Source: Mycolicibacter hiberniae
Lineage (GTDB): Bacteria > Actinomycetota > Actinomycetes > Mycobacteriales > Mycobacteriaceae
Direction: 5' to 3'
Length of the DNA: 64,000 nucleotides
Assembly: GCF_010729485.1 (NCBI RefSeq)
Contig: NZ_AP022609.1
Coordinates: 2,728,001-2,792,000 of the forward strand
The translations under genes were made by a program, and so were the position numbers. Shown here in pieces: positions 7,650 to 12,543 of this stretch. The stretch's first letter is position 1. Every line of letters begins with the position of its first letter. The notes below the pieces were generated by a model. That model searched no databases. It had not been told where the DNA came from and was given only the letters and a program-made list of their open reading frames with translations.

Positions 7650-7664
7650 CCCGGCCTAGCCGGG
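7650..7664. terminator. Short stem-loop between convergent genes
   Basis: CCCGGC (7650-7655), loop CTA, GCCGGG (7659-7664). It covers the last codons of mmaA4 and lies nine bases after the DUF732-like stop, so it could serve both strands. Only six base pairs and no U-tract. Confidence 0.3.
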
Positions 7665-8552
7665 CTCGGCCCCGGGCTTGAGGTAGCTGACCAGGCTGAC
7701 GTCGAGGACTTCGTCGCTGAAGTAGTGCTCGCAGCCGCGCAGATACTTCAGGTAGCGCTGGTAGACCTCTTCGGACTGGATCTCGACGGCCGCGGCTCTG
7801 TTGGCCTCCAGCGCATCGGCCCAGATCCCGAGCGTCTTGATGTAGTGCGGCCGCAGCGACAGTGCTTCGGGCACGACGAAACCGGCGTTGCGGCCGTGTT
7901 GCACCATCATGTCCGTGGTGGGCAGCCGCCCGCCGGGAAAAATCTCGGTGAGAATGAACTTGATGAACCGCGCGGTCTCGAAGGTGAGCTTCTTGCCCCG
8001 CGCGTTCAGCTCATACGGGTGGTAACTGACGCTGCTCTGGATCGTCATTCGCCCATCGGTGGGCAGCATCTGGAAACACCGGGCGAAGAAATCGTCGTAG
8101 CGCTCGTGACCGAAGTGCTCGAACGCCTCGATGGAGACGATCCGGTCGACGGGTTGGTCGAACTCCTCCCACCCGTGCAGGAGCACCCGGCGCTCGCGCT
8201 CGGTGTCGACGGCGTCGAGCAGTCGCTGCGCGTGGGCATGCTGATTCTTCGACAGTGTCAGGCCGATGACGTTGACGTCGTAGGTCTGCAGGGCGCGCTT
8301 CATGGTCGATCCCCAGCCGCAGCCGATGTCGAGCAGCGTCATTCCCGGCCGCAGATCGAGTTTGTCCAGATTGAGGTCGATCTTGGCGACCTGGGCCTGC
8401 GCCAGCGACAGTTCCGGCGGCTCGAAATAGGCACAGCTGTAGGTGCGCGTCGGGTCTTGGAACAGCGCGAAGAAGTCGTCAGACAGGTCGTAGTGCGCCT
8501 GGACGTCGGCGAAGTGCGGCCGCAACGACCTGGCGGCGGAAGGGTCCGGCAT
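7656..8552 (-). CDS. mmaA4: Hydroxymycolate synthase MmaA4
   Basis: Methylates and hydroxylates the distal meromycolate position, the branch point to keto- and methoxymycolates. At 298 residues it keeps MmaA4-specific features: [18 protein letters not shown] near 31-48, [10 protein letters not shown] in mid-protein, LRPHYIKTL, and the C-terminus LRGCEHYF followed by VSYLKPG, unlike the QFTLxK end of its paralogues. SAM motif LLDIGCGWG and catalytic E145 (EAFEHFG) are present. It is the last gene of the five-gene minus-strand operon, seven bases after the mmaA2-like gene. Its presence predicts oxygenated mycolates in this organism. Confidence 0.9.
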
Positions 8553-8559
8553 CGCCGGC

Positions 8560-9423
8560 CTACTTCTGCAACGTGAACTGGTTGACGTCGATGTAGCCCG
8601 TGCGAAAGCCGTTGGCGCAACCGGTCAGATAATGCATGTAGCGGTCGTAGACCTCCTGTCCCTGGATCTCCACGGCCCGCTCCCTGTTGCTCTCCAGCGC
8701 CGCCGCCCAGCAGTCGAGGGTCCTGGCGTAGTGCGGCTGCAGCGAATGCCTGCGGGTCAGGGTGAAACCCGCTCGGTCCGCATGCTGCTCGACCATCTCG
8801 ATGGAGGGAAGCCGCCCACCCGGAAAGATCTCGGTCACGATGAACTTGATGAAGCGGGCCAACGAGAAGGTCAGCGGCATGCCACGCTCGACCATCTGCT
8901 GCCCGGTCAGCCCGGTGATGGTGTGCAGCAGCATCACGCCGTCGGCCGGCAAAGCGGCGTAGGCCATGGCGAAGAAATCGTCGTAACGTTCGTGCCCGAA
9001 GTGCTCGAAGGCACCGATGGACACGATCCGGTCGACGGGTTCGCCGAAGTTCTCCCAGCCCTCCAGCAGCACTCGCCTGCTGCGCCCGCTGTCCATCGAC
9101 GCGAACATGGACTCCACATGGGCCGCTTGATTTTTGCTCAAGGTCAGCCCGGTCACATTGACGTCGTATGCTTCCACCGCCCGGCGCATGGTTGCGCCCC
9201 AGCCGCAGCCGACGTCGAGCAGCGTCATGCCGGGCTGCAGGCCCAGCTTGCCCAGCGCCAGATCGATTTTGGCGAGCTGCGCCTGCTCCAGCGTCATGTT
9301 GTCGCGCTCGAAGTAGGCGCAACTGTAGGTCTGGGTCGGATCGAGAAAGAGCCGGAAGAAATCATCGGACAGGTCGTAATGGGCCTGCACGTCCTCGAAA
9401 TGCGGTATCAGCTTCTTCGCCAT
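8560..9423 (-). CDS. Meromycolate cyclopropane synthase, MmaA2-like
   Basis: A SAM-dependent cyclopropane synthase acting on cis double bonds of AcpM-bound meromycolates. It has 287 residues with C35, E140, H167 and Y232 all in place and SAM motif LLDVGCGWG at 68-76. The stretch around [22 protein letters not shown] and the end [11 protein letters not shown] look most like MmaA2. It is fourth in the operon, 54 bases after the ketosynthase and seven before mmaA4, matching the mmaA2-mmaA4 linkage of M. tuberculosis. It resembles the plus-strand gene at 4438 closely enough to suggest duplication. Confidence 0.87.
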
Positions 9424-9434
9424 GGCAATGCGCC

Positions 9435-10740: not shown

Positions 10741-10763
10741 CTGAGCGCCTCGCTTCCGAACGG

Positions 10764-11624
10764 CTACTTGGTCAAGAGGAATTGACCAACGTTGCTGATG
10801 CCCCTGCGAAAGAGGTCGGCGCAGCCGGTCAGGTAGCGCAGATAGCGCTCGTAGACTTCTTCGGACTGGACGGCGATGGCGCGGTCGCGCTGGTCTCGCA
10901 GATTGTCCGCCCAGATGTCCAAGGTCCGCACGTAGTGTTCCGGCATCAAATACTCGTCCGCCAGACGGAAGCCGGCGTCCTGGGAATACTTGTAGATGTC
11001 GTTGAGGCCGGCCATCTGGCCGCCGGGAAAGATCTCCCGGCCCAGGAACCGAAAGAAGTGCAGATCGCTCATCGTCACTTTGATGCCGTGCTCGCGCCAA
11101 TGGGTTTGGGGGTAGGTGAATATGCTGTGGAGCAACATCCGGCCGTCGTCGGGCAGAATCTTTCGGGCACGTTCGAAGAACGCCGGGTAACGCTCCTTTT
11201 TGAACGCGTCGAACGCTTCGATCGTGAAGATCCGATCGACCTTCTCGTCGAACTCCTCCCAACCCTGCAAGCGGGCCTCGGCACGGCGTTCGGTATCCAG
11301 CGATGCCAGCTTGGCAGCGCTGCACGCGCAGTGACTGCGACTGAGCGTGATACCGATGACGTTGACGTCGAATTGCGTCACCGCCCGCACCAGGCCTGCC
11401 CCCCACCCGCAGCCGATGTCCAGCACCGTCATTCCCGGCTCGAGGTCGAGTTTGCGTAACGCCAAGTCGTACTTCGCGTTCTGCGCTTCCTCGAGGGTCA
11501 TGCCGGCGCGCTCGAAGTAGGCGCAGGTGTAGGCCATCGTCGGGTCGAGGAATAACGAGAAGAAGTCGTCGGAGATGTCGTATGCCGCTTGGGATTCTTC
11601 GTAGTAGGGCCTGAGATCGACCAT
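10764..11624 (-). CDS. Mycolate methyltransferase, MmaA1/UmaA-like
   Basis: 286 residues, SAM-dependent. It opens [11 protein letters not shown] and carries [11 protein letters not shown], both typical of MmaA1, the enzyme that moves a cis double bond and adds an allylic methyl to give a trans double bond. The tail [12 protein letters not shown] is closer to UmaA. The Glu that is catalytic in cyclopropanating relatives (E140, AFEHF) is Asp here (D139, EAFDAF), so ring formation is unlikely and methyl transfer with isomerisation more likely. It lies 28 bases after the cmaA2-like stop. MmaA1 and UmaA cannot be separated firmly without a tree. Confidence 0.82.
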
Positions 11625-11652
11625 CTGCCTCACCTTGCCTTTGATAGATCTC

Positions 11653-12543
11653 TTATGCCGCTGTCTTTTCCATCGTGAACTGGCACACATCGGTGTAGCC
11701 GTCGCGGAACAACTCCCGGCAACCCGTCAGGTATTTCAGGAATGTCTCGTAGGTCTGCTCGCCCTTGAGCTCGACGGCTTGGTCTTTGTGCGCTTCGAGC
11801 GCCTTGGCCCAGGTGTCCAGGGTGCGCACGTAGTTCGAACCGATCATGTGGTGGCGGGTGATCGAGAAGCCGCAACGGGTCGCGTGGTCGTCCACCGTCG
11901 ATATCTGCGGCAGTCGGCCGCCGGGGTAGATCTCGGTCAGGATGAAATGGATGAAGCGCAGCAGCGACATCGTCTTCTTCAGCCCGCGCCGCTCCCCTTC
12001 TTCGGCGGTGGGCACCACGATCGAGTGCAGCAGCATCACACCGTCGTCGGGCAGCACGCGGTGGCACATGGTGAAGAAGTCGTCGTAGCGCTCATAGGTG
12101 CCCACTCCGTCGGCGAAATGCTCGAAAGCTCCCAGCGACACGATGCGATCCACCGGTTCGTCGAATTCCTCCCAGCCCTGCAGCCGCACCTGCCTGGAGC
12201 GCGCGCTGTCCATTTCGGCGAATTTCTGCTCGCAATACGCCACTTGGTTTTCGCTCAAGGTCAGCCCGATGACGTTGACGTCGTACTTTTCGACGGCCCG
12301 CCGCATCGTGGAGCCCCACCCGGACCCGATATCGAGCAGGGTCATACCGGGCCGCAGGCCCAACTTGCCCAGAGCCAGGTCCACCTTGGCCATCTGAGCT
12401 TGTTCCAGCGTCATATCGTCGCGCTCGAAATATGCGCAGCTGTAGGTCATGGTGGGATCCAGCCAGAGCCGAAAGAATTCGTTGGAACGGTCATAGTGCG
12501 ACCGGATGTGGTCGACATCCGGGGCCAGTTCGACGTCGCTCAT
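11653..12543 (-). CDS. cmaA2: Cyclopropane mycolic acid synthase, CmaA2-like
   Basis: First gene of the minus-strand mycolate operon. CmaA2 makes trans-cyclopropane rings on oxygenated mycolates in M. tuberculosis. The protein has 296 residues. It shows CmaA2 hallmarks: [20 protein letters not shown] near the N-terminus, [13 protein letters not shown] with its insertion after the catalytic E141, and [11 protein letters not shown] near the end. SAM motif I reads GSGWG instead of the family GCGWG, a mild change. The start is fixed by GGAGGAAAAAT directly before ATG. With an MmaA1-like trans-isomerase next in the operon, trans-cyclopropanation is a coherent role. Confidence 0.86.

Follow-up and report, generated by a model that had tools for sequence, protein, structure and literature searches.

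An additional KasB-type condensing enzyme encoded among mycolate methyltransferase genes in Mycolicibacter hiberniae

Evidence on whether mycolate methyltransferases act during or after meromycolate elongation has so far come from interaction assays and from the secondary consequences of deleting kasB in Mycobacterium tuberculosis, according to the parts of the literature drawn on here (PMC3245277, PMC4014462). Loss of kasB, or a phosphomimetic kasB allele, yields mycolates that are 4 to 6 carbons shorter and devoid of trans-cyclopropanes (PMC4014462). Interactions with KasA and KasB have been reported for the eight M. tuberculosis methyltransferases, and the activities of Hma (MmaA4), KasB and CmaA2 seemed interdependent to the authors of that report (PMC3245277). 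A precedent for pairing elongation and modification genes on the chromosome is hadD, which adjoins cmaA2 and encodes a dehydratase needed for full-size keto-mycolates (PMC7005898). Here we describe a block of genes in Mycolicibacter hiberniae, a soil-type mycobacterium of the M. terrae complex (Mycolicibacter), in which an additional KasB-type β-ketoacyl-acyl carrier protein synthase (hereafter KAS) is encoded among four mycolate methyltransferases. The window, by which we mean the whole 64,000-nucleotide stretch analysed, spans positions 2,728,001 to 2,792,000 of a single contig of 4,396,654 bp. Our proposal, which we hold to be probable by a modest measure, is that this KasB paralogue couples late meromycolate elongation to modification and that it tunes mycolates and adds no class of its own.

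The KAS and its methyltransferase neighbours

The block runs on the minus strand from 12543 to 7656 and comprises five intact genes, separated in transcription order by gaps of 28, 23, 54 and 7 bases. These genes, together with the acyl-channel flap of the KAS, are as follows:

11653..12543, minus strand: opD, CmaA2-like mycolate cyclopropane synthase, leading the operon and preceded by a ribosome-binding site, GGAGG
10764..11624, minus strand: opC, UmaA/MmaA1-like mycolate methyltransferase, from protein matches and tree clade
9478..10740, minus strand: KAS, extra KasB-type β-ketoacyl-acyl carrier protein synthase of 420 aa, from family model, catalytic residues and tree
10294..10392, minus strand: acyl-channel flap of the KAS, residues 117-149, equivalent by alignment to residues 115-147 of M. 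tuberculosis KasA
8560..9423, minus strand: opB, MmaA2-like mycolate cyclopropane synthase, from protein matches and tree
7656..8552, minus strand: opA, a second MmaA4-like (hydroxymycolate synthase) gene, from protein matches and tree

The genome encodes a complete fabD-acpM-kasA-kasB-accD6 cluster at 1.17 Mb, and the operon KAS, which lies outside that cluster and among the methyltransferases, is 65% identical to the genome's own KasA and 74% identical to its own KasB. Relocation of the only KasB of the genome is ruled out by this housekeeping pair. The KAS scores 771.9 bits against NF005916 (the KasA/KasB family; cut-off 560), and its best matches among solved M. tuberculosis proteins, the basis of all such bit scores below, are KasB (2gp6; 706.5 bits, a structure that spans the full length of the KAS) and KasA (551.4 bits). 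It has the catalytic residues C173, H314, K344 and H349 and the gate residue F408, and its tunnel residues (the set given in the available part of PMC4014462) are those of KasB except for I in place of V at KasB position 338. T316 and T318 correspond to the KasB phosphorylation sites Thr334 and Thr336. Phylogenetic analysis placed the protein with KasB rather than KasA (support 100/100), in a clade of its own (100/98); support values here and below belong to starred nodes unless we say otherwise. The unconstrained tree does not favour an origin by recent duplication from the KasB of the same genus; trees forced to that origin score 13.8 log units worse, a difference too small for rejection in the approximately unbiased (AU) test (p 0.243). 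Low G+C proved unusable as a sign of foreign origin, with the resident MmaA4 gene at rplA-lipG equally low (0.612) and the KAS gene equal to the housekeeping kasB (0.673).

All four operon methyltransferases exceed the NF040660 cut-off of 390 bits (425.3 to 521.7). The best match of opD is CmaA2 (441.5 bits, against 404.8 for PcaA) and that of opA is MmaA4 (534.1 bits), in comparisons that exclude MmaA3, whose chain is absent from the matches, and opB is closest to MmaA2 (503.8 bits, against 493.3 for CmaA1). At the position of the CmaA2-specific insert, for which the motif ADGAGDA is given in the part of PMC3089613 drawn on here, opD does have an insert, with the unlike letters ADGVGTY. No promoter-like match was found in 7400-13100, and minus-strand terminator-like matches occur at 10955-10967 (inside opC) and 13001-13019 (upstream), the total of 5 being within chance expectation.

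A first-pass annotation of this DNA had described a minus-strand block of five genes with these gaps and an intact C173/H314/H349 set in the KAS, and coordinates, reading frames and residues all agree. Its names for the genes in transcription order hold in the protein matches, with the refinement that opC is as near UmaA (435.4 bits) as MmaA1 (421.7 bits), a single tree clade containing both. It had also proposed an extra module that includes the KAS, and this is a fair reading, given that the housekeeping kasA-kasB pair lies elsewhere in the genome and that a methyltransferase neighbours the KAS in all 16 genomes of the census described below.

Seven mycolate methyltransferases of the genome exceed the family cut-off, five at the operon locus and two at rplA-lipG, where another MmaA4 is encoded beside a divergent UmaA-like protein and MmaA1-3 are absent. 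The gene for the divergent UmaA-like protein (8087-8950 of L133, the genome's own rplA-lipG locus, beside MmaA4 and lipG; best match 357 bits) has counterparts in L185, L207, L208, L235, L236 and L189. The type also stands beside MmaA4/lipG in G085, G016 and G077, and further copies occur elsewhere in G320, G308 and G085.

Distribution, change of site and origin of the parts

We searched 396 genomes of the genus with a profile of 13 KAS proteins (ten of the operon type and three of an icl-locus type) and found the operon-type KAS, at 869 bits or more, in 16 genomes, the next matches listed reaching at most 862 bits. The locus was read in all 16, and in each a mycolate methyltransferase adjoins the KAS. 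The nearest named relative at the locus is Mycolicibacter (Mycobacterium) engbaekii, with 97% identity in the KAS and 96% in opB. The five-gene order, which the first-pass annotation had suggested looking for in other mycobacteria, is present in 9 of the 16 genomes (that of the window included), and since it is identical in all nine it is not attributable to chance. The others encode opD-opC-KAS (G022, G361 and G305, the last at a contig end), opD-opC-KAS-opB (G180), KAS-opB (G173 and G320) or KAS-opB-opA (G308, where a fossil opC end precedes the KAS), and no MmaA4-like gene was found downstream in 6 of the 16, one of them at a contig end. The module is not fixed in composition, and an inseparable opD-opC-KAS "trans-cyclopropane trio" was ruled out, as 3 of the 16 genomes hold the KAS without the other two. 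At a separate site, G022 (L186, 7386 to about 10160), whose operon lacks opB and opA, has MmaA2-like, MmaA4-like and MmaA2-like genes in a row.

With the resident MmaA4 serving to mark the genus, 20 of the 396 genomes were recognised as Mycolicibacter-like (E 1e-172 or better). The operon KAS is present in 13 of these and absent from 7 (G016, G077, G149, G291, G347, G350 and G371); it is dispensable. A second search of the seven again yielded no operon-type KAS, and each has kasA and kasB side by side and the MmaA4 gene of rplA-lipG. G149 has a further KasB copy, with genes at C1:2064444-2065703 and C1:2072466-2073728 about 7 kb apart, one of them adjoining kasA. In G016 (L174, L207) only two methyltransferases exceed the cut-off, MmaA4 and the divergent UmaA-like type, with no CmaA2-, MmaA2- or PcaA-like gene, and this gene content predicts a mycobacterium whose cyclopropanes are scarce or absent.

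A species tree of six genes from the 20 Mycolicibacter-like genomes and 3 outgroups has a basal clade without the operon (G149, G347, G350 and G291; 99/97), and the remaining 16 genomes group together (93/94, not starred). One clade of that group (100/100) has the operon site between metX and folD, with the KAS present in 7 of 10 genomes; at this site G077 retains opB and G016 is empty. The sister clade (99/97, 6 genomes) carries the operon elsewhere, with luciferase-like and zinc alcohol-dehydrogenase neighbours, and the block has therefore moved as a whole. With the opD-opC-KAS core of sp. 1274756.6 (L061) at a third, the operon occupies at least three chromosomal sites. The metX-folD interval of five more distant genomes (G093, G071, G104, G065 and G060) contains no such genes.

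Two loci serve as references for the origin of the parts: the mmaA1-mmaA4 cluster, which we take to lie between rplA and lipG in M. tuberculosis (an rplA-lipG mmaA cluster is seen in L182), and the icl locus, for which we assume the M. tuberculosis order icl-fadB2-umaA-pcaA. In a methyltransferase tree of 69 sequences, opD groups with opD-like genes at icl-fadB2 of G060, G147 and G071 (98) and opC falls in a clade with genes at the UmaA and MmaA1 positions (100). The other two group with genes of the rplA-lipG cluster, opB with MmaA2-like genes (97) and opA with MmaA4-like genes (100), one of which is also present in the window's genome. These placements indicate that the operon joins two older gene sets. 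A KAS related to that of the operon adjoins the CmaA2-like gene at icl-fadB2 in G060 and G147, the latter locus also holding relatives of opC, and G071 has methyltransferases there without a KAS. In G093 a related KAS lies at a contig end beside a fragment of a CmaA2-like gene, with a UbiA gene on its other side, a neighbour from which we judge that this KAS is probably at icl-fadB2 too. The window genome's own icl-fadB2 locus contains neither KAS nor methyltransferases. The operon and icl-locus KAS groups are each supported at 100/98; a common origin of the two is compatible with the trees but not demonstrated by them (AU p 0.47).

Three further genes flank the operon in the window:

4438..5301, plus strand: MmaA2/CmaA1-like methyltransferase, at the same locus and outside the operon, apart from opB in the tree (100)
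5338-6840, minus strand: PE-PPE-domain protein, at the downstream end of the operon
7104-7640, plus strand: DUF732 protein, at the downstream end of the operon

The plus-strand methyltransferase possibly belongs to the same gene set as the operon; its type forms a clade of its own and is found at the locus in L054, L172 and L173 and not in L052 or L053. The PE-PPE-domain and DUF732 genes remain in relatives that have lost the KAS (L174, L175).

Selection, the acyl-channel flap and competing explanations

The ratio of nonsynonymous to synonymous substitution rates is 0.088, 0.063 and 0.064 for the KAS in three pairs and 0.045 to 0.150 for the four operon methyltransferases, and the KAS is under long-term purifying selection. 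Comparing 19 operon KAS sequences with 92 background KasB sequences, nearly all of them housekeeping (the unlinked copy of L118 is included, and the flanks of L115, L124 and L127 are too short to tell), we identified 13 residues typical of operon KAS and rare in the background. Five of the 13 (P121, W126, G127, Q129 and V132) change the flap, an excess with a binomial p of 0.0023 in one of eight groups tested; the flap was counted here as residues 116-148, and the identical sites fall within 117-149. The genus's own KasB has none of its 14 clade-specific sites in the flap, and six other groups show no significant flap excess (lowest p 0.08). The five sites lie close together and are not independent, and we regard the excess as a moderate signal, suggestive and not strong. 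According to the part of a review drawn on here (PMC9519891; further background on the acyl channel is in PMC6299220), the flap moves to let the acyl chain in, and this cap has been proposed to explain differences between KasA and KasB. H80, found in 16 of the 19 operon KAS, aligns with KasA Arg78, which the same review lists among the AcpM-binding residues, and A214 occupies a methionine position of the KasA of the same genome; both of these clade-specific residues may be functionally relevant.

These data bear on the possibility that the KAS is a redundant spare, a duplicate of KasB, unaltered in substrate range and kept for dose, its neighbourhood being a mere convenience of coexpression. 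Its 74% identity to the housekeeping KasB, its unchanged catalytic residues, its tunnel with the single I-for-V substitution and its absence from 7 of the 20 Mycolicibacter-like genomes are all consistent with such a role, as is the finding that most extra KasB copies elsewhere (11 of 14) do not lie beside methyltransferases. Against it stand the methyltransferases that adjoin the KAS in 16 of 16 genomes, through a change of locus, as well as the long-term purifying selection and the 13 clade-specific sites, of which the flap contains 5, and we consider a spare copy unlikely.

We instead favour the KAS as a coupling enzyme, with the operon encoding a second, dedicated set of proteins that would finish meromycolate chains. 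We infer this late-elongation and modification set from the interdependence of KasB and methyltransferases in M. tuberculosis and from the presence in the operon of counterparts of all three of Hma, KasB and CmaA2. The KAS would add the last two-carbon units to meromycolyl-AcpM. Judging each methyltransferase by its M. tuberculosis relative, the MmaA4-like opA would introduce the distal hydroxyl and methyl groups, the MmaA2-like opB the cis-cyclopropane, the UmaA/MmaA1-like opC a methyl branch together with the cis-to-trans change, and the CmaA2-like opD the proximal trans-cyclopropane. Production from a single transcript would hold condensing enzyme and methyltransferases at a set ratio, potentially bringing elongation by the KAS and modification together in one physical complex, as has been proposed for M. 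tuberculosis KasB. Working in addition to the housekeeping kasA-kasB and the rplA-lipG mmaA4, the set would tune how long the usual mycolate classes are and how they are modified.

A bolder version, which we can entertain only tentatively, is that the KAS forms a third FAS-II (fatty acid synthase II) elongation complex dedicated to modification, its flap reshaped for chains that carry or are about to receive methyltransferase products, such that proximal trans-cyclopropanation would take place during the last rounds of elongation. Were this true, the M. terrae complex, with its natural losses of part or all of the operon, would provide a ready-made deletion series. Alternatively, the KAS could feed another lipid, such as a long-chain wax ester or a polyketide precursor, on which the methyltransferases would then act. 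Dispensability of the operon, a frequent trait of accessory lipid systems, would suit this alternative only indirectly; the five genes include no acyl-activating enzyme, polyketide synthase or transporter, all five proteins belong to FAS-II/mycolate families, and we give the idea very little credence.

A number of observations weigh against the coupling that we favour. Of the extra KasB copies of other genomes, 14 were examined; those of G060, G147 and G093 adjoin methyltransferases, 11 lack such a neighbour within the 8-18 kb read, and the unlinked KasB copies of L078 and L118 are likewise not beside methyltransferases. An extra KasB by itself therefore does not imply a methyltransferase module, and the linkage is a property of the operon and icl-locus KAS groups and not of extra KasB copies generally. 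Within the operon type, opD and opC are gone from the operon with the KAS kept in 3 of the 16 genomes (G173, G320 and G308), and a family search found neither gene elsewhere in these three; G320 and G308 each have a single additional methyltransferase, which belongs to the divergent rplA-lipG type (70-71%). The simplest account on the species tree has two losses of the KAS, one in G016 and one in G371 plus G077, and a basal clade that never had it. The flap columns are also more variable in KasB generally (12/33 against 82/387), and allowing for this higher variability the flap excess has a p of 0.018. Finally, the KAS-less genome G016 was matched to strain Mu0083 (M. kokjensenii), both being 4,341,397 bp, and high-performance liquid chromatography (HPLC) of the mycolates of Mu0083 and Mu0102 is described as giving the two clusters usual in the M. 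terrae complex, one at 10-13 min and the other at 19.7 min (PMC11706282).

This last comparison, a coarse one taken from the text of PMC11706282 and not from a chromatogram, bears most directly on the suggestion of the first-pass annotation that a single module makes a distinct chain-length class of oxygenated mycolates. The nearest species to Mu0102 by average nucleotide identity is M. virginiense (PMC11706282), which we take to be represented by G069, a genome with all five operon genes, the operon content considered here being that of M. virginiense and not of Mu0102 itself. A distinct class would suit an operon in which MmaA4-like and CmaA2/MmaA1-like enzymes accompany a late condensing enzyme, but the matched operon-less strain shows the same two clusters as Mu0102, and the seven operon-less genomes among the 20 hold the kasA-kasB pair and the rplA-lipG MmaA4. 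The distinct class is thus not supported, and we consider it highly unlikely, although a small class could escape so coarse a method.

Three additional lineages of extra KasB that do not lie beside methyltransferases were also noted, comprising L143/L145/L147, L151/L161/L163/L165 and L149/L153/L155/L157. The gene precedes a short-chain dehydrogenase/reductase (SDR) gene in L143 and L145, and in L151 it lies between abhydrolase pieces and a solute-binding protein.

Comparison with known systems

Searches of the open literature returned no title or abstract on this operon in the collection covered, which does not extend to papers outside it, and on the mycolate chemistry of the M. terrae complex they led to PMC11706282; in the parts drawn on, PMC9431677 and PMC5819568 deal with a fatty acyl-AMP ligase and with taxonomy. 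Additional KasB genes have been recorded before: kasB_1 and kasB_2 are listed in a table for M. avium subsp. paratuberculosis (PMC3366959), and the name kasB2 has been used for MSMEG_4328, which adjoins kasA (PMC5430705). Partners of the kinds linked by assay in M. tuberculosis are here joined genetically in other mycobacteria, forming a set that is both extra and dispensable. Sister species with all, some or none of the genes offer a natural comparison of the coupling between lengthening and decorating, and the KAS could be removed with kasA left intact.

Among described systems, M. tuberculosis KasB (Rv2246) and its E2-FAS-II complex share with the operon KAS the KasB-type sequence, the catalytic residues and both phosphorylation-site threonines, and KasB is reported to contact mycolate methyltransferases (PMC3245277). 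Unlike that enzyme, the operon KAS is a third one, encoded outside fabD-acpM-kasA-kasB-accD6 and among methyltransferases, with a changed flap. The other extra KasB copies of mycobacteria, of which 14 were examined, are likewise second KasB-type genes besides the kasA-kasB pair, and differ in that 11 of them do not stand beside mycolate methyltransferases; the parts of the literature drawn on here contain no study of what these copies do.

The rplA-lipG mmaA cluster, the source of the opB (MmaA2) and opA (MmaA4) lineages, has these in the same relative order, but contains no KAS, and its version in the window's genome consists only of MmaA4 and one divergent methyltransferase. The icl-fadB2 locus resembles the operon in having an opD-like gene beside a related KAS in G060 and G147, with opC relatives in G147; there the orientation is divergent, and in the window's genome the locus is empty of these genes. 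In the hadD (Rv0504c)-cmaA2 pair of M. tuberculosis, a FAS-II core enzyme gene stands beside a methyltransferase gene and acts on the same oxygenated chains (PMC7005898), whereas the operon encodes a condensing enzyme in place of the dehydratase and four methyltransferases in place of one.

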